Part shown: positions 49,447-60,030 of the stretch, piece by piece
Numbering within the stretch: the stretch's first letter is position 1
How the letters are laid out: each line of letters begins with the position of its first letter
Source: Bartonella sp. DGB1
GTDB lineage: Bacteria; Pseudomonadota; Alphaproteobacteria; Rhizobiales; Rhizobiaceae
Reading direction: 5' to 3'
Length of the DNA stretch: 64,000 nucleotides
Assembly (NCBI RefSeq): GCF_041345015.1
Contig: NZ_CP166769.1
Coordinates: 496,001 to 560,000 of the forward strand
The notes under the pieces: generated by a model
The model's database searches: none
Seen by the model: only the letters and a program-made list of their open reading frames with translations
What the model was told of the DNA's origin: nothing
Program-made: the position numbers and the translations under genes

Positions 49447-49860
49447 ATGGATAAACAATCAGTTAACAAAAATAGGTCTTTAAAAAAGACCTATCAAGAT
49501 ACTTATGCTAATGACATTATTAAATTAATGTCAGAAGGATATAGTTTATCTGCATGCGCAGCTCAGCTTAATGTTACTTGTGAATCTTTATATAGTTGGC
49601 AAAAAGAATATCCTGCATTTAATGAAGCTATAAAATTAGGGCAAGCTAAACGTTTGTTTTTCTGGGAGCAGAAGTTATTAGATCCAGAATTAAAACCTGT
49701 TTTTTTAAGAGCTATTTTATTCACTTTGCAAAATATAGCACCATTAGAATGGAAAGATAAAGAACAGGATAATCTTTTAAATAGTATGACTGTTAATAAA
49801 ATTGAGCTTGTAGCACCAGATTTAGCAAGAAATTATTACATAAATAAGGAGAAAAAATGA
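49447..49860 (+). CDS. Phage terminase small subunit-like protein
   Basis: This 137-residue protein begins the virion cassette. It contains a helix-turn-helix (LMSEGYSLSACAAQLNVTCESLYSWQKEYPAFNEAIKLGQA), the DNA-recognition type found in terminase small subunits, followed by a helical region. Its position right before the large terminase is decisive for the call. The subunit recognises the packaging site on the DNA to be packaged. There is a 21-base gap to terL. The 190-base spacer upstream has no recognisable att site or integrase. Confidence 0.8.
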   Translation: MDKQSVNKNRSLKKTYQDTYANDIIKLMSEGYSLSACAAQLNVTCESLYSWQKEYPAFNEAIKLGQAKRLFFWEQKLLDPELKPVFLRAILFTLQNIAPLEWKDKEQDNLLNSMTVNKIELVAPDLARNYYINKEKK

Positions 49861-49881
49861 CACATTAAATAAGGTAAAAAA

Positions 49882-51222
49882 ATGTTTGATTATTATAAAA
49901 AGAATAAAAAAAAATTTGTAAAAGTAGAATTACCACCTAAATTGATACCAATTTTTATGGGCGAGGCACGTTATAGAGGGGCATATGGTGGTAGAGGAAG
50001 TGGAAAAACAAAAGCTTTTGCTAAAATGGCCGCAATAAAGGGATTACAGCTAGCGCACGAACAAAAAAAGGGCATAATAGTTGCTGCACGAGAATTTATG
50101 AATACGTTAAACGATAGTTCAATGGCAGAAATTAAAGCAGCTATTAATGCAGAGGATTGGCTAAAAAGTAATTATGATATTGGAGAAAATTATATTAGAA
50201 CTAAAGACAAAAATATAGAATTTGTATTTATAGGGTTAAGGTATAATTTGGATTCTATAAAGTCAAAAGCACAGATACATTTATTTTGGGTGGATGAGGC
50301 AGAAAATGTAACTGAAAATGCTTGGAGGAAAATTTTACCAACAGTGAGAGAAAAAAATTCTGAAATTTGGCTAACTTGGAATCCTGAAAGTGCAACTTCG
50401 GCCACTCATAAAAGATTTAGAGAGGCGCCACCAAAAAATGCAAAAATTACTGAGTTAAATTGGCGAGATAATCCTTGGTTTCCTGAAGTTTTAAATAATG
50501 AGAGATTAAATGATTTTAATAATAGACCTCAATATTATGCGCATATTTGGGAAGGAGATTTTATAACTGTAGTAGACGGAGCTTATTTTGCGCAGAATAT
50601 AATTAAATTAAAAGAAGAAGGAAGAGTAGCTCACATCGTGCAAGATCCATTATTAACTTTGCAAGCATTTTGGGATATAGGGGGCAGTGGTGCAAAAGCA
50701 GATCATACCGCTATTTGGATAGCTCAATTTGTAGGAAAAGAAATAAGAATCCTAGATTATTACGAAGCACAGGGGCAACCGTTAGAAACTCATATAGATT
50801 GGTTGAAAATTAATAAATATCAAAATGCTTTAATGGTTTTACCACATGATGGAGCTACTAAAGATAGAGTGTATGATGTAAGTTTTCAATCTGTTTTAGA
50901 GCAGGCTGGATTTGAGGTTAAAGTAATACCTAATCAAGGGGCTGGTGCCGCTAGGATGAGAATAGAAGCAGCAAGAAGACTCTTTTCACGAATGTGGTTC
51001 AATGAAGAAACTACTAAAGCTGGTTTGGCGGCTTTAGCTTGGTATCATGAAAAAAGAGACGATGTAAGAGGAATAGGATTAGGACCAGATCATGATTGGA
51101 GTTCACATGCTGCAGATGCTTTTGGATTAATGTGCGTGAAATATGAAGAACCGAGGATAAATTATAAAAGAAATTATGATTTTAGTCAATTTGAAGAAGA
51201 AGATTCATGGCTAACTTATTAA
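49882..51222 (+). CDS. Phage terminase large subunit
   Basis: The large terminase is the ATPase motor and nuclease of DNA packaging. The 446-residue protein shows Walker A RGAYGGRGSGKTKAFAKMAA (residues about 32-51), Walker B HLFWVDEAENV, and coupling motif LTWNPES. The RNase H-like nuclease domain has WDIGGSGAKADHTAIW and HDWSSHAADAFG carrying its acidic residues. It fits the PBSX/Terminase_3 type. Both active sites appear intact, so the gene is not obviously decayed. A ribosome site, AAGGTA, precedes the ATG. Confidence 0.94.
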   Translation: MFDYYKKNKKKFVKVELPPKLIPIFMGEARYRGAYGGRGSGKTKAFAKMAAIKGLQLAHEQKKGIIVAAREFMNTLNDSSMAEIKAAINAEDWLKSNYDIGENYIRTKDKNIEFVFIGLRYNLDSIKSKAQIHLFWVDEAENVTENAWRKILPTVREKNSEIWLTWNPESATSATHKRFREAPPKNAKITELNWRDNPWFPEVLNNERLNDFNNRPQYYAHIWEGDFITVVDGAYFAQNIIKLKEEGRVAHIVQDPLLTLQAFWDIGGSGAKADHTAIWIAQFVGKEIRILDYYEAQGQPLETHIDWLKINKYQNALMVLPHDGATKDRVYDVSFQSVLEQAGFEVKVIPNQGAGAARMRIEAARRLFSRMWFNEETTKAGLAALAWYHEKRDDVRGIGLGPDHDWSSHAADAFGLMCVKYEEPRINYKRNYDFSQFEEEDSWLTY

Positions 51223-51234
51223 GGAGAAACAAAA

Positions 51235-51798
51235 ATGGAAGAAAATGATAGCCAATTGGTGGAATATACTAATGAAGATATTGAAAGTAACCAAGAAAAT
51301 AATATTGACGAGCAAGATAAAAAAATAAAGGAAGTAGAATCAAAAGATTTACAAAAATTAACATCTGAATTTTGGGAAGAGGCAGTAAATGTTAGTCGAG
51401 AAGCTCTTCCAGATATTGAAGAGGCGGTAAAATTTTTACAAAAATTTCAAGATAATCAATTAAAAGATATGGCTTTTATAAATGAAAGTTTACAAGATCA
51501 AAAATATCGAGAAAAATTGATACAAAATGAACTAGAGCAAATTATTCAAATTTCTGCTTTACAAGATAAAAATCCAGTAAAAATAATTTATCAATTAGCT
51601 AAACTACGTGGTTATAAAAATTTAGATAGTCAATTAGCTTCTAATAAAGAATTAGCTTTTGAAAGAGCTAAAACTTTAACAGCTAGTAATGGTTCAAAGT
51701 TTGAAGTTGAAAATATTGATAGTTTGGTAAATATGCCATTAGAAGATTTTAAAAAAGCTTTAACCAGAGTAGGTGGCGATTTAAAAAAATTATTATAA
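51235..51798 (+). CDS. Probable phage scaffold or head assembly protein
   Basis: This 187-residue, strongly acidic and helical protein has no motif I can name. It starts with a Glu/Asp/Asn-rich disordered segment (MEENDSQLVEYTNEDIESNQ), then long amphipathic helices (IEEAVKFLQKFQDNQLKDMAFINESL) and a lysine-rich end. Being placed immediately before the capsid gene, with its size and composition, fits a scaffolding protein. The role is inferred from context only. AAGGAGAAAC precedes the ATG. Confidence 0.6.
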   Translation: MEENDSQLVEYTNEDIESNQENNIDEQDKKIKEVESKDLQKLTSEFWEEAVNVSREALPDIEEAVKFLQKFQDNQLKDMAFINESLQDQKYREKLIQNELEQIIQISALQDKNPVKIIYQLAKLRGYKNLDSQLASNKELAFERAKTLTASNGSKFEVENIDSLVNMPLEDFKKALTRVGGDLKKLL

Positions 51799-51815
51799 TA
51801 AAATAAGGAAAAAAT

Positions 51816-52904
51816 ATGACAAGAATGGAAATAACTTCTGATAATCTATCTGCCGTTAAATTATGGGCAAAAAAACTAACCTTAGAAGTTAGAGATTTTA
51901 CCCCGATTGCACCTTTAATTGGTGAAAATGAAGATGCAATAATACATTTAAAAACGGCAACTCAAAAAGGCAAAGGTGATAGAATAACTTTTGATTTACT
52001 TGGGTTATTAGATAAGGATGGTGTAACCGAAGGGGAAAAATTAGAAGGACAAGAGGAAATAGCGCAAATTTATACAGATTCTTTGGTTATTAATCAATTA
52101 AGAACTGCAGTAGCAGTACCCGCAGATGGTACTATTGATGAACAGCGCGCCTCTTTTAATATGCAAGAAAAAGCTAATAAAATGTTGCGTAATTGGTTCT
52201 CTCGTAGGCTGTCTATTGCGGCACATTTACATTGGGCAGGATATACCGGAGATGAAGTAACTATTGAAGGAAAAAAATATAAATTGTCAGGCGTTCATTA
52301 TGGATTTAATAAACCAACTGCTCCAACTAAAAAAAGACATTTAATTGCTAATAATAAATCTTCAGAAAATGAATTATCTGAACAAGATAGATTTTCTTTA
52401 AAACATATTGATGAAGCAATAATGTTGGCTAAAACGAGTAATCCAACAATGCAACCTGTAACTATTAATGGTGATAAAGTTTTTGTAATGTATCTACATC
52501 CTGCACAAGTAAAAGATTTACGTAGTAATTGTGATGGTGGACAATGGTTAGATATTCAAAAATCTGCTTATGCTGGTTCAAGGAGTAAAAATCCTATTTT
52601 TGATGGTTCTTTGGGGATGTACAATGGTGTTATTTTAAGAGAGGCTGTACATGTAATGCCAGGATTAAATAATGAAAGAAAAATGAAATTAAATACGCGT
52701 AGAGCAGTATTATTAGGCGCTCAATCTTTAGCGGTAGCTTTTGGTAGAAATATGGATCACAGCTATTTTAAAATTATTAAAGAGACAAAAGACTATGAAA
52801 ATGAGTTGGGTTTTGCCTGCTCAACATTATTTGGAATTAAAAAGACTAAATTTAACAATGAAGATTATGGAACCATAGTTGTTTCTACATATAGCGATTT
52901 ATAA
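51816..52904 (+). CDS. Major capsid protein, N4-gp56 family type
   Basis: This 362-residue protein resembles the N4-gp56 (DUF4043) major capsid family. It has VKLWAKKLTLEVRDFTPIAPLIGENEDAIIHL near the start, GDRITFDLLGLLDKDGVTEGEKLEGQEE, and the core with FSRRLSIAAHLHWAGYTGD and FVMYLHPAQVKDLR. The C-terminal GAQSLAVAFGR and ENELGFACSTLFGIKKTKFNNEDYGTIVVSTYSD complete it. It builds the icosahedral shell. The gene is intact and follows the scaffold-like gene. A 117-base spacer with an inverted repeat separates it from the portal. Confidence 0.88.
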   Translation: MTRMEITSDNLSAVKLWAKKLTLEVRDFTPIAPLIGENEDAIIHLKTATQKGKGDRITFDLLGLLDKDGVTEGEKLEGQEEIAQIYTDSLVINQLRTAVAVPADGTIDEQRASFNMQEKANKMLRNWFSRRLSIAAHLHWAGYTGDEVTIEGKKYKLSGVHYGFNKPTAPTKKRHLIANNKSSENELSEQDRFSLKHIDEAIMLAKTSNPTMQPVTINGDKVFVMYLHPAQVKDLRSNCDGGQWLDIQKSAYAGSRSKNPIFDGSLGMYNGVILREAVHVMPGLNNERKMKLNTRRAVLLGAQSLAVAFGRNMDHSYFKIIKETKDYENELGFACSTLFGIKKTKFNNEDYGTIVVSTYSDL

Positions 52905-52918
52905 CTGAAATAAGTTAG

Positions 52919-53004
52919 AATAGGGAGATGATAAAGCAAATATATCTATATCTGGCTTTATTAATTATTACCTTGGAATTTAATTGCTTTTAAGTCTCCT
53001 TATT
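52919..53004 (+). promoter_or_regulatory. Inverted repeat between capsid and portal genes
   Basis: About 23 bases at 52919-52941 are roughly complementary to 52982-53004, with a core of AAAGCAA against TTGCTTT and GGAGA against TCTCC. The structure fills the spacer before the portal ribosome site. It could reduce read-through from the highly expressed capsid gene or stabilise its mRNA. Function is inferred. Confidence 0.45.
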
Positions 53005-53021
53005 AAATAAGGATATTTAAA

Positions 53022-54752
53022 ATGACAGAAGAGATATTATTTAATCGGCTGAAGTCATGGTATCAGACTGATTTAGAAAATTGTATAAAATGGAGAAAAA
53101 TAGCGCAAGAAGATTATAATTTTTATAACGGTCATCATTGGAATGACAGAGAATTAGCTATTTTAAGAGCTCAACGAAGACCAGTAATAAGTTTTAATCG
53201 AATAGCACCTATTATTCAATCTGTGCTAGGATCAGAAATAAATAATCGACGCCAGATAAGATTTATACCTAGGGAACAAGGCGATATTATTCCAAATGAA
53301 TTATTAACTGCTACTGCTGAATGGTTTAGAGAACAATCAGAGGCAAATTCAGAAGAATCTGAAGCTTTTAGAGATGCTATTATTTCAGGAATTGGATGGA
53401 CAGATACTAGATTATGTTTTGATGATAATCCAAGAGGAGCTCCAGTAGTAGAAAGATTAGATCCATTTAAAATGGTATGGGATTCAAGGGCGAATAGACC
53501 TAATTTAAAAAATGCTGAAAGATTATTTTATGTAGATGAAAAAAATATTGAGGAATTAAAAATTTTATTTCCAGGTAATAATGAAGCAGATTTGCACGCA
53601 GATTGGGCTTTATATGGTAGCGAAAATTTAAATAAAGATGATTACGATAATATCAGACATCAACAGGGTAAAGCTATTATAGTAGAATGTAGATGGAAGG
53701 TAAAAGAAACCTATTATCAAATTATTTTATTAGATGGGCAAACATTTGAATTATCTGAAAAAGATTATTTAGAGTTTAGAAAAAATACTAATCAAGATTA
53801 TTCAAAAGTGAAATTTCGTAAAACTATTATTAAAAGAGCATTTTTAGGAAATAAAATTCTTCAACCTATTGATGAACCATTAACTTCACCAGCTAATTTT
53901 GGTTGGTCTGCTATTACTGGATTTTATGATCTAACCGATAATATATATTATGGATTAACTAGAGCTATGAAAGATCCACAAAGATGGGCTAATAAATTTT
54001 TTAGTCAGGTTATGCATATTTTGAATAGTCAGACTAAAGGAGGAATTTTAGCAGAAAGAGGAGCTTTTGAAAATGATAGACAAGCTGCTGAGAGTCTCGC
54101 AAAGAGTGATCAGATAACTTGGATGAAAAGTGGATCATTAAGTAATAGCTCTCCTAGAATTCAACCTAAACCGGCAGCATCTTTCCCTGATGGTTTTTTT
54201 GCTTTATTTAATGAAAGTAAAAATAGCATATATAATGTTACTGGTATCAGTCAGGAATTTCTAGGAACAAGAGCTATTAATCAGCCTGGTGTATTAGAGA
54301 TGCAACGTAAGGAATCATCTTTAAATTTATTAGCACCTTTATTTGATAATTTGAAAAAATACCGTAAAAACCAAGCTGAAATTATGTTGTATTTAATTCA
54401 AAATTATTTATCAGATGGACGATTGATTAGAATTCTAGGAACAGAAAAACAGGAATATGTAAAATTAACCAGAGAGAATATTGCTAATATTGAATATGAT
54501 ATAATAGTTGATGATGCACCTACTAGCACTAATGAAAAAGAAAAAACTTTTGAAGTGATTAAAAGTTTATTGCCTTTTTTAAGAAGCTATATGAGTCCAG
54601 AATTAACATTAGATATTTTAAAATATTCACCTCTACCTTCCTCATTAATCGAAAAATTAAAATCAGAATTAGATAAAAAACAAGAAGTAGGCGGAGAGGA
54701 TAATGCCTTGCAACCTAAAGATATAGAAAAATATATGATGGGTGAATATTAA
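53022..54752 (+). CDS. P22-type phage portal protein
   Basis: The portal forms the ring through which DNA enters and leaves the head. The 576-residue protein matches P22-like portals: DYNFYNGHHWNDRELAILRAQRRPVISFNRIAPIIQSVLGSEINNR near the start, then RDAIISGIGWTDTRL and VERLDPFKMVWDSRA. Later come GFYDLTDNIYYGLTRAMKDPQRWANKFFSQ and GISQEFLGTRAINQPGVLEMQRKES. It is placed after the capsid gene rather than between terminase and capsid, an uncommon order. No frameshift is seen. AAGGATA precedes the ATG. Confidence 0.9.
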   Translation: MTEEILFNRLKSWYQTDLENCIKWRKIAQEDYNFYNGHHWNDRELAILRAQRRPVISFNRIAPIIQSVLGSEINNRRQIRFIPREQGDIIPNELLTATAEWFREQSEANSEESEAFRDAIISGIGWTDTRLCFDDNPRGAPVVERLDPFKMVWDSRANRPNLKNAERLFYVDEKNIEELKILFPGNNEADLHADWALYGSENLNKDDYDNIRHQQGKAIIVECRWKVKETYYQIILLDGQTFELSEKDYLEFRKNTNQDYSKVKFRKTIIKRAFLGNKILQPIDEPLTSPANFGWSAITGFYDLTDNIYYGLTRAMKDPQRWANKFFSQVMHILNSQTKGGILAERGAFENDRQAAESLAKSDQITWMKSGSLSNSSPRIQPKPAASFPDGFFALFNESKNSIYNVTGISQEFLGTRAINQPGVLEMQRKESSLNLLAPLFDNLKKYRKNQAEIMLYLIQNYLSDGRLIRILGTEKQEYVKLTRENIANIEYDIIVDDAPTSTNEKEKTFEVIKSLLPFLRSYMSPELTLDILKYSPLPSSLIEKLKSELDKKQEVGGEDNALQPKDIEKYMMGEY

Positions 54753-54777
54753 ATTTAACATTTAATAGGAGACAATT

Positions 54778-55485
54778 ATGTCTGCATGTTTTACAAATTT
54801 TTTGCATTTAAAACAGTTATTAGCTTTAGAAATAGATGACACGCAAGATACTTATAAGGAGGAAATAGAACAAGCTATTTGGAATGTTTTTCAAACTTAT
54901 GAAAATGCAGATTTTTATTTTTTAGAAAAAAAACCATTTAAATTATTATTAGAAAAAGGGCGCGCTAATTATCCAATCTGGTTACATGAGGAGAGCCAAG
55001 ATTATAAAAATAAATTAATCCAGAATAAAATTGATTTAGCACAAAGGCAAAAATTTTCATTATTTACCAATGAAATTTTTACTAGTTATATTAAATTGGG
55101 TAATAATATAAATCATTACTTATATAAAATGGATAATTGTTCATCAGAAAAAAATACAGCTGAGTTTGGGATACCATTAATATATAGTTTTACTAAAGAT
55201 AACCCTAATAAAATAAATTTTTATCCTGTACCAGATAAAGATAGGATAGTTTATTTTAAATTAAGAACACCAGGAAAATTAAATAGTTATTTCGCTAATA
55301 TATGGTTGAAGGAAGCTCCTAAGTTATTAAAGGAAGCGGCAAAAAAATATTTATTTCAATATATTTTACGTGATTATGAACAAGCTGTTATAGCCGCGGC
55401 AGGGGAGAAAGAAGCTGTACAAAATATATTAACTGCTACTTCTAAACAACAAGAGGTTCATTCTATAACTCTAACAGAATTTTGA
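54778..55485 (+). CDS. Phage head-tail adaptor-like protein
   Basis: This 235-residue protein has no motif I can name with certainty. It is predicted to be a mix of helix and strand (FLHLKQLLALEIDDTQDTYKEEIEQAIWNVFQTYENADFYFLEKKPF, then LIYSFTKDNPNKINFYPVPDKDRIVYFKLRTPG, ending in helices). The mention of output values like FYPVPDKDRIVYFKL and the place right after the portal resemble the gp4-like adaptor proteins of podoviruses. Assignment rests mainly on gene order. Seven bases separate its stop from the next start. Confidence 0.6.
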   Translation: MSACFTNFLHLKQLLALEIDDTQDTYKEEIEQAIWNVFQTYENADFYFLEKKPFKLLLEKGRANYPIWLHEESQDYKNKLIQNKIDLAQRQKFSLFTNEIFTSYIKLGNNINHYLYKMDNCSSEKNTAEFGIPLIYSFTKDNPNKINFYPVPDKDRIVYFKLRTPGKLNSYFANIWLKEAPKLLKEAAKKYLFQYILRDYEQAVIAAAGEKEAVQNILTATSKQQEVHSITLTEF

Positions 55486-55492
55486 GGTGAAA

Positions 55493-56959
55493 ATGTCCGT
55501 TATTAATATACCTTATTATGCACCAGATTCTGCTAGTACTAATAGTAAATATTCAAAAGTAGTAGAAAATCTATTTCCAGCGTTAGATGGATATATTTCT
55601 ATTCCTTCGTTTAAAACATTTGGAGATCCAATAAAAGCTAAAATATATGGAGGTATTTCTGTTCAGTCAATGGATAGATTATCTTATTGTTTTATTGGTA
55701 CTGCAAAAGATATTTTGATGTTAGATAATACTACAAAAAAATGGAGAAAAGTTACTAATAAAACAAAAAAATATTCAGCTAATGAATTATCTTATTGGTC
55801 TTTTACGGTATTTGGTGATTATGTAATAGCAGTTAATGCAAATGATAAACCACAAGTATTTAATTTAAAAACAGATAGTCATTTTAGAGATTTAGGTGGT
55901 AATCCTCCAAAAGCTAGAAGCGTAACCGTATGGGGCGATTTTTTAGTTTTAATTTCTTTAATTGATGAGCCAAATAAAATTATGTGGTCAGGATTAAATA
56001 ATATCGAATGGTGGGAGGTAGGAAAGAAAAATTGTGATTATCAGTCTTTTCCAACCGGCGGTATGGTAATAGGAGCAAGTAATTCCACCAATCCAATTAT
56101 TTTTATGCAACGTGCTATATATAGAGGAATTTTTGCGCCTGGTTCTAAAATGGTTTTTACCTTTTCCAAATTATATGATCTTGCTGATAATCAATCTGCT
56201 CGAGCAATTGTAGCAAGAGAAAATCTATCTTTTTTTATTGATACTAGTGGATTTTACCAGATAGATATTCAAGGAAATTTAAAATCTATTGGAAGAGGAA
56301 AGATTAATGATTTTATTTTAAAAGAAGTATTAGGGGGTAATTTATTTAATGTTATCGGGGCAATAGATCCGGTAGCCAGCAGAGTATATTGGGGAATTAA
56401 AAGCGGTAATTCTACTTTTATTAATAAAATATTAATTTACGATTGGATCTTAGATCGATGGAGTTATATGAAAGTAGAATTAGAATATATATTACCACTA
56501 TATAGCACAGGGAAAACCTTAGAGAGTTTAGATGAATATGGTAATTTAGAAAATTTACCATATTCATTAGATTCTTATGTATGGCAACATGATTACCCTA
56601 GTTTTGCAGGAATAAATTTACAAGGGCAGATAGGATCTTTCAGTGATAGGCAACAGCCAATGGAAGCATTAATTGTCTCATCTGATTTTAAAAATAATAA
56701 TGGCGCTATAGGAATTTTGAAAGATATAGCTTTAGATATTGATGGAGGAGAATATTTTGTTTCGTTTGGTACAAGAAAAAATCTGTTATCGCCAATAGAA
56801 TGGTCAAAAGAATATGCTGTAGAACCTAAAATAAATAAAATAAATAAATTAAAAAGGGGGAGATATCTAAGTATTAAAATTAGAATATCGTCGCAAAAAT
56901 CTGCTTGGAGTAAAATAAGTAAAATTTATTATAAATGGTTAACAGCAGGTACAAGATGA
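55493..56959 (+). CDS. Phage tail hub/DNA stabilisation protein, P22 gp10-like
   Basis: This 488-residue protein is rich in beta strands with repeating blade-like segments (YCFIGTAKDILMLDNTTKKWRKVT, SYWSFTVFGDYVIAVNANDKPQVFNLKT, SVTVWGDFLVLISLIDEPNKIMWSGLNNIEWWE, ENLSFFIDTSGFYQIDIQGNLKSIGRG). Such features occur in the P22 gp10 family, which closes the portal and supports the tail. The frame extends to GTG 55487, but GAGGTG gives the ATG at 55493 a good ribosome site. It overlaps the next gene by four bases. Confidence 0.72.
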   Translation: MSVINIPYYAPDSASTNSKYSKVVENLFPALDGYISIPSFKTFGDPIKAKIYGGISVQSMDRLSYCFIGTAKDILMLDNTTKKWRKVTNKTKKYSANELSYWSFTVFGDYVIAVNANDKPQVFNLKTDSHFRDLGGNPPKARSVTVWGDFLVLISLIDEPNKIMWSGLNNIEWWEVGKKNCDYQSFPTGGMVIGASNSTNPIIFMQRAIYRGIFAPGSKMVFTFSKLYDLADNQSARAIVARENLSFFIDTSGFYQIDIQGNLKSIGRGKINDFILKEVLGGNLFNVIGAIDPVASRVYWGIKSGNSTFINKILIYDWILDRWSYMKVELEYILPLYSTGKTLESLDEYGNLENLPYSLDSYVWQHDYPSFAGINLQGQIGSFSDRQQPMEALIVSSDFKNNNGAIGILKDIALDIDGGEYFVSFGTRKNLLSPIEWSKEYAVEPKINKINKLKRGRYLSIKIRISSQKSAWSKISKIYYKWLTAGTR

Positions 56960-57387
56960 TAAAATTATATAATACTAATGGTTGGAGTCAAAAACAAATA
57001 AGACCTTATTTATTAGATATTTTTACAGCAATTATGCAATTAGAACATAAAATACCAATGTTATCCGGATCTATCATTTGGAATGAAATATTAAAGGGGG
57101 AAAAAGATTTATGGATCATAAAAGAAGATAATAAATTCAAATCTATTGCCTTAACCAAAGTAATGCAAAACAAATATAGTGATAATATATTAATGATATT
57201 TGATTATGCAGGGAGTGATTTAGGAATAATATCAGAAATTTTGCAACAAATGTTAGATTGGGCGAAAAAACATAACATAAAATATGTAGAAACTACAGGG
57301 AGAGAAGGATGGAAAAAATTCTTAAAACCTGCAGGATTTAAAATCAAAGAAATAACTTATTTAAAGGAAATTAATCATGAATTTTAA
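56956..57387 (+). CDS. Phage-associated GNAT-like acetyltransferase
   Basis: This 143-residue protein has the length and general pattern of the small GNAT-like proteins coded among structural genes of many podoviruses. IIWNEILKGEKDLWIIKEDN gives the central strand region, LGIISEILQQMLDWAKKHNIKYVETTGREGWKKFLKPAGFKIKE matches their conserved end. The role in the virion or host is unknown. The ATG at 56956 overlaps the preceding stop; an in-frame ATG at 56935 would give a 25-base overlap. Confidence 0.65.
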   Translation: MIKLYNTNGWSQKQIRPYLLDIFTAIMQLEHKIPMLSGSIIWNEILKGEKDLWIIKEDNKFKSIALTKVMQNKYSDNILMIFDYAGSDLGIISEILQQMLDWAKKHNIKYVETTGREGWKKFLKPAGFKIKEITYLKEINHEF

Positions 57388-57538
57388 CTCTTATATCTAT
57401 AATATTCCAGTAATAGATGAATTACAAGAAGATGATAATGTAGAGGTTATGGTAGTTATGAATGGTAATTTTTGTCGTCTTCCTTTGAAAAAATTATTTA
57501 AAAAAGTAAAAGAGGCGGAAAATGAGCTCAATTTATAA
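57377..57538 (+). CDS. Small phage protein of unknown function
   Basis: A 53-residue frame (MNFNSYIYNIPVIDELQEDD to KVKEAENELNL) fills the space between the acetyltransferase-like gene and the fibre gene. It overlaps them by 11 and 17 bases, a tight packing that supports a real gene. It is acidic in the middle and basic at the end, with no motif known to me. It is shorter than usual gene-calling limits. Confidence 0.6.
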   Translation: MNFNSYIYNIPVIDELQEDDNVEVMVVMNGNFCRLPLKKLFKKVKEAENELNL

Positions 57539-58514
57539 TTGGTCAGTAAATAGTGATAGCAATCAAACATCTGATAAAGAAATAGATTGGAGAGAGGGGC
57601 AAGCGCCCTCAACGGTAAATAACAGTGCTAGAAAAATGATGGCACGTATTGCTGAATTTATTCACGATACACAATATATTTTAGATACTACTGGTGATGG
57701 AAAAAATTATAAATTACTGATTAAAACTCAAATAGTTAAATATGAAGAATTTTTAAATTTAAATATAAGATTTAATCAAAATAGTAAAGCAGAAGCTAAA
57801 TTATCTATAAATAATCTAGTTAGCTTACCTATTTTAAAAAGAAATGATAAAAATAGTTTTGAGCCAATATCAGCAGATGAACTTGAGATAGGAAAAATCT
57901 ATAATATAAGATATTTTAAGAAAGTTAAAGATGAGCAAGATGCTTTTTGTATAATGTCTTTAGGGGGTACGGCTAGTAGCTACATTAAGGCTTTTGTACC
58001 TACAGGAGCTATTATTGCATTTGGAGGAAAAATAAAAGAGGGAGAATGGTTGTTTTGTGATGGTCGAGAATTAGCTCGTAAAGATTACCCTGAATTAGCT
58101 GATATTTTGAATAATAGTTGGGGTGTTACTACTAATGTAAATCATTTTAAATTACCTGACTTACAAGGGAGTTTTTTAAGAGGCGTAGATTTTGCTAATC
58201 GGTTAGATAAACAATCATTAAGAAATATTGGATCCTTTCAAGAAGAAGATATAAAAGGGCATACACATGATTTTAAAACTAAAGAAAATCTAGCAGTACA
58301 ATATGAATCTATTACAGAATCTCTTAGAATACCATTGACAGGGTCAGGAATTGTAAAGACCATAGCTAGCAAGACAATAAATCAATTAACCGGCGAAAAG
58401 GTGGTACCAGGTCAAGAAATGGGTGTTCATACACATTTAGGAACTACAGATAAATCTACAGGGTTTGAAACTCGACCAAGTAACCATGCCGTAGCATATT
58501 ATATAAAAACTTAA
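57522..58514 (+). CDS. Phage tail fibre with collar domain
   Basis: This 330-residue protein is likely the receptor-binding fibre or collar. The N-terminal part (NWSVNSDSNQTSDKEIDWREGQAPSTVNNSARKMMARIAEFIHDTQ) is of the type seen in fibre proteins that dock to the virion. The C-terminal phage tail collar domain is clear: VPTGAIIAFGGKIKEGEWLFCDGRELARKDYPELADILNNSWG, FKLPDLQGSFLRGVD, and the histidine-containing GHTHDF and GVHTHLGTT, ending with RPSNHAVAYYIKT. The ATG lies in the end of the preceding small gene. Confidence 0.85.
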   Translation: MSSIYNWSVNSDSNQTSDKEIDWREGQAPSTVNNSARKMMARIAEFIHDTQYILDTTGDGKNYKLLIKTQIVKYEEFLNLNIRFNQNSKAEAKLSINNLVSLPILKRNDKNSFEPISADELEIGKIYNIRYFKKVKDEQDAFCIMSLGGTASSYIKAFVPTGAIIAFGGKIKEGEWLFCDGRELARKDYPELADILNNSWGVTTNVNHFKLPDLQGSFLRGVDFANRLDKQSLRNIGSFQEEDIKGHTHDFKTKENLAVQYESITESLRIPLTGSGIVKTIASKTINQLTGEKVVPGQEMGVHTHLGTTDKSTGFETRPSNHAVAYYIKT

Positions 58515-58525
58515 GGAGAAGAGAA

Positions 58526-59287
58526 ATGTCGAGTCAATCTACTCATAGGACACAAATAGATAATACACCTGCAAATTGGGCGAATGAAGGAATTAAAAAT
58601 GCAACAGCTCAATTAAATGAAGTATTGAAAAGAAAAAAATATCAACCCGTACCAGTTCAGCGACAAGCAAATTTAAGTCATCAAACACAAAATACTATAG
58701 ATGATATAAATAATAATATTAATAGAATATATCATCAGGAATCAGCGGCAGAACAGCATTTATCTGATATGGCAAAAGGAAAATATTTGAAAGAGGGTAA
58801 TCCATATTATAGAGAAAGATTACATAATGATATTGATAAAATTAATAATATTGTTCAAAGTCAATTTTCTGGTGCTGGGCGATATGGTTCAACGGCACAT
58901 GTTGATGCTTTAAGTCGTAATAGTCAAGATATGTTGTTAGCTGGCTTAGAAAAAGATTATAATAGAGCATTAGATAATATGGTAAATGCTAATAATCAGA
59001 TAGATCAAAATAAAAGAGTAAAAGATCAGACATTGATAGCTAGTTTAAAAGATAAATTATTATCAGGGCAGTTGGTTGATAAACATAACCAAGAAAAAAA
59101 CGATATAAATTATAAAAATGAACTTAGACAAAGAAATAGAGAATTTGAAGATTTAAAAAGTTATGCTGATATTATGAATATTTTGAATAGTAAATACGGA
59201 AAGATTAGTAAAGACGAAATTATTGAAAAATCAATTTGGGAAAAAATTTTAGCTGATCTTGCTGTTGCCGCAGTTAAAAGTATTTAA
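58526..59287 (+). CDS. Phage internal virion or injection-type protein
   Basis: This 253-residue protein is highly charged and helical, with coiled-coil-like runs (NHNQEKNDINYKNELRQRNREFEDLKSYADIMNILN-like). The central QFSGAGRYGSTAHVDALSRNSQDMLLAGLEKDYNRALDNM is of a type I associate with phage structural or injection proteins, which carry the GRYGS-H pattern. There is no enzymatic motif. Location after the fibre gene at the end of the structural block agrees with this. AAGGAGAAGAG precedes the ATG. Confidence 0.6.
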   Translation: MSSQSTHRTQIDNTPANWANEGIKNATAQLNEVLKRKKYQPVPVQRQANLSHQTQNTIDDINNNINRIYHQESAAEQHLSDMAKGKYLKEGNPYYRERLHNDIDKINNIVQSQFSGAGRYGSTAHVDALSRNSQDMLLAGLEKDYNRALDNMVNANNQIDQNKRVKDQTLIASLKDKLLSGQLVDKHNQEKNDINYKNELRQRNREFEDLKSYADIMNILNSKYGKISKDEIIEKSIWEKILADLAVAAVKSI

Positions 59288-59315
59288 ACAATAATATAAA
59301 ATATCAGGCATAAAT

Positions 59316-59552
59316 ATGGGTAAAAAGAAATTCATTCCATTATTGCCTAATAAAAAAATAAAAAAATGGGAAGAATTAACAACAAGAGAATTAAAAGATT
59401 TAAAATCATTATTGTTGATTTACAACAACTTATTATTCGCTATTAAAATAATCCGTTTTTTATTTATCGGGCTAATGGTCATCATTTTCATGATGTTTAA
59501 TAATTTAGATTCTATAATGGATATCTTAATTAAGTTAATAGGTGAAATATGA
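59316..59552 (+). CDS. Small phage membrane protein, holin-like candidate
   Basis: A 78-residue protein with a basic N-terminus (MGKKKFIPLLPNKKIKKWEEL), one amphipathic helix and one or two membrane-spanning stretches (about residues 36-62, LLFAIKIIRFLFIGLMVIIFMMF). Its size and place at the end of the structural block fit a holin, but no endolysin is present in the window. It overlaps the next gene by four bases. The role is inferred from context. Confidence 0.55.
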   Translation: MGKKKFIPLLPNKKIKKWEELTTRELKDLKSLLLIYNNLLFAIKIIRFLFIGLMVIIFMMFNNLDSIMDILIKLIGEI

Positions 59553-59776
59553 ATAATTATAAAATTATTACTATATTAATTTCTATTTTTGCTGTTTTTG
59601 TTAAAATTTTTAACTTAGGAAAAAAAAATGAAAAAATTAAAAATAATAATAAAATTTTAAAAAATGTTAAAGCAAGATCTAGCGTAGAATTAGAAATTAA
59701 TAAAGAAAATATGGATAATATACGTAATAAGTTAAAGAAATGGAAAATTAACTATGAAAAGTTCGACAAGAAATGA
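59549..59776 (+). CDS. Small phage membrane protein, spanin-like candidate
   Basis: This 75-residue protein has an N-terminal membrane helix (residues about 5-22) followed by a charged, lysine-rich helix (LGKKNEKIKNNNKILKNVKARSSVELEINKENMDNIRNKLKKW). This layout resembles inner-membrane spanins, but no partner lipoprotein is evident. ATGA overlap with the preceding gene suggests coupling. Function remains unproven. Confidence 0.5.
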   Translation: MNNYKIITILISIFAVFVKIFNLGKKNEKIKNNNKILKNVKARSSVELEINKENMDNIRNKLKKWKINYEKFDKK

Positions 59777-59927
59777 ACATCTTTATAACATCAGTAAAGG
59801 TGATTATGAAAAAGTTAAGGATATATTATATATATATCAAAGTATGAAGAAACAAAATAAATTAATGCGATTAATTTATAGGTTAACTATTGGCTGGAAA
59901 ATATTCTGGAAATTAAATAAAAAATAA
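59754..59927 (+). CDS. Small basic protein at the end of the phage block
   Basis: A 57-residue frame (MKSSTRNEHLYNISKGDYEKV to FWKLNKK) overlaps the end of the preceding gene by 23 bases. It is basic, with a C-terminal hydrophobic stretch (LIYRLTIGWKIFW) that might associate with a membrane. The overlap and the terminator 45 bases later favour a real last gene of the operon, but coding status is not certain. Confidence 0.45.
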   Translation: MKSSTRNEHLYNISKGDYEKVKDILYIYQSMKKQNKLMRLIYRLTIGWKIFWKLNKK

Positions 59928-59971: not shown

Positions 59972-60030
59972 GACTAGATAACTAGTTACTATTGGTATAG
60001 TAACTATATGTTATCTAGTCAAATTTTATT
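59972..60030 (+). terminator. Terminator at the end of the phage block
   Basis: A long inverted repeat, 59972-59992 with 59997-60020, shares GACTAGATAAC and TAGTTACTAT arms with a three-base bulge and a TGGT loop. AAATTTTATTTT follows. This is a strong rho-independent terminator and marks the end of the phage transcript. The following 180 bases to the TerC-type gene hold nothing recognisable. Confidence 0.85.

Follow-up and report, generated by a model that had tools for sequence, protein, structure and literature searches.

The gene transfer agent (GTA) of Bartonella, BaGTA (Bartogtaviriformidae), is described in the literature as a cluster of virion genes that holds a lysozyme gene, bgtA (PMC10949449). 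In the published B. australis BaGTA table, the conserved genes from terS to collar measure 330, 1344, 1863, 840, 1119, 1464, 1113 and 972 bases. According to a proposal in PMC6854486, the small terminases of GTAs have no helix-turn-helix (HTH) domain; a 109-aa B. australis protein is listed there. ComEC and DprA take part in BaGTA uptake, and a run-off replication origin is linked to BaGTA in mammal-associated Bartonella (PMC6899734). The same review describes BaGTA as restricted to the genus Bartonella, although it has been reported in an ant symbiont, Tokpelaia, and in a mite symbiont (PMC5156944, PMC10949449). Here we analyse a block of virion genes at positions 49447-59927 of a 64,000-base stretch of DNA (the window, G000:C1:496001-560000) from the genome deposited as Bartonella sp. 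DGB1, referred to as G000. This is a single-contig genome of 1,398,791 bases (1.40 Mb) and the sole species of its genus in our genome set. The block is a homologue of BaGTA and a rearranged form of a known kind; the observation in the initial annotation, an intact set of virion genes on its own, is itself confirmed.

Gene content and integrity of the block

The block consists of 14 intact, tightly packed open reading frames (ORFs) of short-tailed-phage type on the + strand, which together cover 97.8% of the interval 49447-59927. Genes were called from ORFs of at least 60 aa, giving 12, and ORFs of 57 and 53 aa were added separately. Pfam and PHROGs matches identify a terminase small subunit, Terminase_3, Phage_capsid_3, P22_portal, Collar, the phrog_3287 virion protein and, weakly, a DNA-ejection protein. 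The order is terS, terL, scaffold, capsid, portal, head completion, 490-aa protein, GNAT, small ORF, collar and ejection, as set out below.

49447..49860, +, terS, small terminase; phrog_309 (E 1e-11) and HTH_Tnp_1 (E 2.9e-4); most Bartonella-like relatives have a short type without HTH instead
49882..51222, +, terL, large terminase; Terminase_3 (E 9e-26); 53-67% identity to Bartonella-like copies
51235..51798, +, scaffold-like 187-aa protein; 24-36% identity to the capsid-adjacent protein of relatives; putative function, from its place
51816..52904, +, major capsid protein; Phage_capsid_3 (E 1.4e-67), phrog_334; 8-row alignment
53022..54752, +, portal, behind the capsid gene; P22_portal (E 4.9e-106); Bartonella copies have the portal before scaffold and capsid
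54778..55485, +, 235-aa head-completion-like protein; phrog_19385; 21-27% identity where found in relatives; putative function, from its place
55487..56959, +, 490-aa virion structural protein; phrog_3287 (E 1.5e-70); 37-41% identity to the copies recovered from Bartonella-like relatives, 29% to that of G006
56935..57387, +, 150-aa GNAT-like protein; phrog_25629; 23-28% identity in relatives; GNAT-like by eye, no Pfam match
57377..57538, +, 53-aa small ORF; homologue, by profile, of the small protein that follows collar in BaGTA relatives
57522..58514, +, collar/tail-fibre protein; PF07484 (E 3.6e-14); 28-34% identity over ~330 aa in Bartonella-like relatives with the whole gene
58526..59287, +, ejection-like protein, shorter than in Bartonella; phrog_4287 (E 9e-8); tree neighbours are the phage-like G299/G340
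59316..59552, +, 78-aa small protein, holin candidate from sequence and place; no family; hydrophobic by eye
59549..59776, +, 75-aa spanin-like protein; weak match to phrog_1026, Rz-like spanin (E 6.9e-4)
59754..59927, +, 57-aa small ORF; no PHROGs family
59972..60020, +, 3'-terminal stem-loop of the block, with 21 pairs; folds at -25.5 kcal/mol (z -6.6 relative to 200 shuffles)

Several of these assignments were examined individually. In a 7-row alignment the large terminase keeps GGRGSGKT, which we take to be the Walker A motif, together with WVDEAE and all of the aligned acidic positions in what is presumably the nuclease half. The 53-aa ORF is the top match (E 2.8e-4) among 927 stop-to-stop segments of the window to a profile of the near-collar small protein from six relatives. 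Over 62 aa, the 75-aa protein and a small protein encoded by a resident prophage are 34% identical (E 1e-10, in a single comparison); the 78- and 57-aa ORFs gave no convincing match to a prophage small protein. For the 57-aa ORF, a scan of PHROGs alone returned no family.

No integrase, repressor, replication or lysozyme family was found among the 12 larger ORFs by Pfam and PHROGs, so that the block appears, as the initial annotation had it, as intact virion genes without integration, control or replication functions. The same annotation noted an AT-rich composition like that of the surroundings, which agrees with G+C fractions of 0.27-0.32 in the block and 0.25-0.35 in the window. The block itself has no lysozyme, in keeping with the absence of an endolysin claimed for it; lysis genes are not wholly missing, however, given the Rz-like match at 59549-59776. 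Similarly, the stem-loop behind the supposed strong terminator is real, but its T-run is weak and a terminator scan did not list it. The claim that the genome accumulates decay is borne out in part by its lysozyme-like matches (see below).

The marks of a temperate prophage, namely integrase, repressor, replication genes and att repeats, were not found with the virion genes. In particular, the proposed search for att repeats yielded no direct repeat joining the two block borders among the 20 repeat families listed of 26. The window is free of tRNA genes and has a single tmRNA, at 26.7 kb. The TerL and capsid genes lie within 5 kb of one another, which is the criterion for BaGTA used in PMC9662315.

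Relationship to BaGTA and to phages

In all, 394 genomes of the family, an even sample of a larger group, were searched for the portal protein at a cut-off of E 1e-20. Matches were found in 19: six in genus g107, taken as Bartonella, seven in Bartonella-like genomes, and six in other genera (G185, G198, G201, G299, G340 and G396). The Bartonella-like genomes, as defined by a host tree of LigA and TerC, are G000, G005, G006, G042, G088, G108 and G141. Named Bartonella loci came from 10 stretches found by exact pattern, two of which encode a relative: Bartonella sp. F02 (L023) and B. bacilliformis Ver097 (L024); the lack of further names therefore carries little weight. In both, homologues of nine block proteins lie within 12 kb. 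The 53-aa ORF is a tenth BaGTA homologue, by profile, bringing the total to 10 of the 14 block ORFs.

The F02 locus reads terS, terL, portal, scaffold-like, capsid, head-completion-like, 487 aa, 152 aa, ejection-like, collar, 87 aa and lysozyme, and its portal, capsid and terminase match the same Pfam models as the window proteins. Comparison with the B. australis table reveals the same gene order and close lengths. Because order and lengths agree in this way, we conclude that the Bartonella copies are BaGTA and that the window block is its homologue, an assignment made from lengths, order and names rather than by direct comparison with the published locus.

The window block and BaGTA share the TerL, P22-type portal, scaffold-like, Phage_capsid_3 capsid and head-completion-like families, as well as the phrog_3287, GNAT-like, ejection-like, collar and small-protein families, and the two are partly collinear. 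They differ in that the window portal lies behind the capsid whereas the Bartonella portal precedes the scaffold, and in that the window collar precedes the ejection gene whereas the reverse holds in Bartonella. Furthermore, the window has no linked lysozyme, a phage-type TerS with an HTH match, another chromosomal place, and a TerL outside the Bartonella TerL clade.

Closer relatives are the BaGTA-type blocks of G108, G088, G005 and G042/G141, whose capsid and TerL cluster with the window copies in trees. The G108 block is, like that of the window, compact and set between host genes. These genomes keep the HTH-less TerS, and G108, G141, G042 and G005 keep a lysozyme near the block; the window differs in both respects. 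A BaGTA-type block is thus present in a small genome outside Bartonella, and counting the window's own genus together with those of G042/G141, G108, G005 and the shortened G088 copy, such blocks occur in five genera outside Bartonella.

Three related loci have peculiarities of their own. In G088 (L107, L122; G088:C1:58001-98000) the block retains the genes terS, terL, portal, scaffold and capsid, and the later genes are not among the ORFs of the next 20 kb; downstream of the capsid gene, as also in G005, lies one that by eye encodes an APC-type permease. The G108 block has two tandem collar genes (L106:1970-3954). Contig G006:C3 (L017), of 19,988 bases in a 1.1-Mb genome, carries the same virion genes together with, by eye, DnaB and an initiator, and may be a small phage.

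Among phages, Rhizobium phage RHph_Y1_10 has eight recognisable block genes, with 51% identity in the portal and 50% in the capsid, but this 43-kb phage record also includes genes for replication, a regulator and lysozyme-like functions. The likeness to RcGTA (Rhodogtaviriformidae) is one of analogy, in the idea of a domesticated head-tail gene block. RcGTA uses portal and capsid families other than P22_portal and Phage_capsid_3. As the window portal and capsid match these two Pfam models, an RcGTA type is ruled out, judged by Pfam family rather than by RcGTA sequence. The initial annotation was right to exclude an RcGTA-type head-tail set; its further proposal, that P22/N4-like parts make this a new type of GTA, is not supported, since Bartonella loci with the lengths and order of BaGTA share the portal and capsid families.

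The resident siphovirus-like prophages of G000 were considered as a source of the block and rejected: in the stretches compared, only a 56-base collar stretch matches, and the window TerS has no second copy in the G000 genome.

Phylogeny and divergence

Quick trees of broad sampling were built with viral contigs from the best 80 matches of each scan and with short matches filtered; loci L301-L323 (capsid) and L226-L244 (TerL) were unused. In the capsid tree (74 rows) the window falls in a clade with G108, G088, G005, G141, G042 and one viral contig, L246 (98% SH-aLRT). In the TerL tree (77 rows, L246 not among them) it groups with G108, G088, G006, G005, G141 and G042 (support 93). A wider capsid clade (99% SH-aLRT, on a quick tree with long rows) takes in 43 of the 74 rows, comprising Bartonella, Bartonella-like genomes, the window, G006 and viral contigs. 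The capsids of RHph_Y1_10, G185 and Mae-JY35 lie outside this clade, so that the window capsid sits on the BaGTA side of the division.

The block has diverged at a broadly host-like rate. The window end branch measures 1.27 for LigA and TerC (quick tree) against 1.21 (quick) or 1.52 (careful) for four block genes. Across 10 Bartonella-like taxa chosen by hand (G141, G006, G106 and Ver097 left out), block and host pair distances from quick trees correlate with r 0.93; leaving out the window gives 0.87, the Mantel p being 2e-4 in either case. Their ratio has a median of 1.22 and a range of 0.82-2.00. This correlation arises in part from fast rates common within a genome. For the phage-like pair G185/G299, the distance is 0.05 in host genes against 1.49 in the block. 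G106, represented by only part of the genes, was left out of the four-gene trees, and G198, G201 and G396 were left out of the careful, per-gene and broad trees.

Selection and chromosomal location

Purifying selection acts on the block in relatives. In G042 and G141 the block occupies the same locus with the same flanks, and the ratio of non-synonymous to synonymous substitution rates (dN/dS) is 0.013-0.108 over nine block genes (the collar in part), compared with 0.026-0.027 for LigA and TerC. Two Bartonella pairs gave 0.055-0.310 over nine and eight genes, with dS mostly above 0.9, compared with 0.083-0.167 for LigA and TerC. The initial annotation had proposed a test for copies conserved between thiB and TerC with dN/dS below 1; the G042/G141 values are far below 1, but the G141 copy lies away from TerC. 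Around TerC in seven relatives (G005, G006, G088, G108, G141, G297 and G404), folB is next in five and ilvC nearby in two.

Beside TerC in G141 (L127:10696-14945), and apart from the GTA block of that genome, lie early genes of phage-like kind, for an S24 repressor, a DnaB helicase, an HTH_36 protein and a relative of phrog_15385, which may be there by chance.

The small terminase

The short TerS is phrog_11043, and the four copies inspected are 88-110 aa long. It was found in 12 of the 16 genomes searched, namely 11 of 12 Bartonella-like relatives and G185; it was not found in the other four, G000, G006, G299 and G340. It sits upstream of terL, within ~0.8 kb by coordinates in the relatives. 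The four copies inspected have no Pfam match at E 0.1 and no recognisable HTH, which is what random packing would lead one to expect. The window TerS matches phage small terminases (phrog_309, E 1e-11) and has weak N-terminal HTH matches, HTH_Tnp_1 at residues 13-56 among them, that fall below Pfam's own cut-offs; the TerS of G006 belongs to the same PHROGs family.

Because the window TerS is of the phage type with an HTH, packing may begin at preferred sites rather than randomly. We raise tentatively, as a rather doubtful extension, that the 1.4-Mb genome carries a directed GTA, which would have acquired a sequence-reading TerS, pack preferentially from defined chromosomal sites and draw its lysozymes from elsewhere. 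A change of TerS type within an otherwise conserved block offers a natural test of whether loss of the TerS DNA-binding domain makes GTA packing random.

Lysozymes, prophages and competence genes

G000 contains 10 lysozyme-like matches. Four are intact in siphovirus-like prophages, one is intact and stands alone, and five are broken or fragmentary, four of these with in-frame stops and one a 30-residue fragment. The lone lysozyme (165 aa, G000:C1:458866) is 86 kb from the block. It belongs to a phage-like cluster between host genes at G000:C1:457.2-459.4 kb (L156:8205-10363), made up of a repressor-like HTH gene, a 166-aa orphan, a single-stranded DNA-binding protein (SSB) and the lysozyme. 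The orphan was found in its own genome alone among 16 searched. By path, the nearest rows to the lone lysozyme are the GTA lysozymes of G042/G141, and its top identity, 57% over 141 columns, is to a resident prophage's; a 14-row tree with long branches does not place it.

The four siphovirus-like prophages (L018-L021, near 922, 380, 986 and 593 kb) are mostly 91-99% alike over long stretches. They carry tape measure, collar and lysozyme genes and, by eye, an integrase gene, and frames are broken in some copies.

ComEC and DprA are present in G000; each occurs in 10 of 11 genomes, missing only in G006.

Interpretation

On balance we favour the view that the block is a domesticated particle operon of the BaGTA lineage, derived from a short-tailed phage, which packs host DNA. 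Its gene content, intact frames, BaGTA homology with part collinearity, broadly host-like divergence and, in relatives, purifying selection with dN/dS far below 1 make this the best-supported reading, and the initial annotation's domesticated particle, such as a GTA, is to that extent upheld; the phage-type TerS counts against a plain GTA. TerS and TerL would fill a small head with chromosomal DNA by way of the P22-type portal, and the collar/fibre and ejection proteins would then deliver it to a neighbour cell. Lacking genes for replication, integration and control, the block cannot act as a phage alone and would carry host DNA. Lysis would require a lysozyme in trans, either the lone intact one at G000:C1:458866 or those of the four resident prophages.

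A number of observations weigh against this interpretation. The short HTH-less TerS of 11 of 12 Bartonella-like relatives, the GTA form proposed in PMC6854486, is missing in the window, which has the phage-type protein instead; G006, also without it, has its genes on a 20-kb phage-like contig with a phrog_309 TerS and shares the window TerL group. No lysozyme is linked to the window block, as one is in the BaGTA cluster. The Bartonella TerL proteins branch elsewhere in the TerL tree, with G185 and viral contigs. ComEC and DprA say little in its favour, as they are also found in the phage-bearing G185 and G299. The initial annotation had suggested conservation between thiB and TerC, but the portal copies of the seven relatives examined lie away from TerC, and the position of the block is not common to them. 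Purifying selection in the window genome itself would be read from the intact frames, the dN/dS values being those of relatives. Finally, a single clade of the 12 Bartonella-like blocks without six other rows, G006 among them, is rejected (p-AU, from the approximately unbiased test, 0.026), the ejection gene clusters with the phage-like G299/G340, and the window end branches vary from gene to gene, 0.39 in TerL, 2.68 in the 490-aa protein and up to 6.24 in the collar, with long-branch warnings. The block is on these grounds mosaic, in its TerS and ejection genes, while its core lies nearest to those of other Bartonella-like genomes. It may have descended vertically from BaGTA or have come from a related phage.

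An unlikely but serious alternative is a defective prophage: a related phage would have arrived separately and later and lost its early and lysis genes, leaving an intact but useless virion module. The TerS family held in common with the phage-like G006 copy, the affinity of the ejection gene to G299/G340 and a thiB-TerC place not common to the relatives would all suit such an origin, and phages of this build exist (RHph_Y1_10, Mae-JY35). In topology tests on the four-gene tree, a union of the window with G006 (p-AU 0.25) or with Mae-JY35/G299/G340 (p-AU 0.19) was not rejected. Against a useless module, however, all block frames are intact while lysozyme remnants of the same genome carry stops. 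The composition of the block is that of the genome, the window end branch is about as long as for two housekeeping genes, and capsid and TerL cluster with the same host group and not with the other sampled phages and viral contigs.

We think it very improbable that the block supplies the virion of a phage that still works, with its repressor, replication and lysis functions encoded elsewhere in the chromosome. The 457.2-459.4 kb cluster, with its repressor-like gene, orphan, SSB and lysozyme, could supply some of these, but inspection by eye of the cluster and its retrieved flanks showed neither integrase nor helicase, and at a distance of 86 kb one headful of ordinary size could hardly hold both. 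Equally little credence attaches to a virion-derived particle with another use, such as killing competitors or protein delivery: selection on virion genes alone is no proof of DNA transfer, but none of the terminase, portal and ejection genes has been lost, and the residues that are conserved across the seven aligned terminases are intact.

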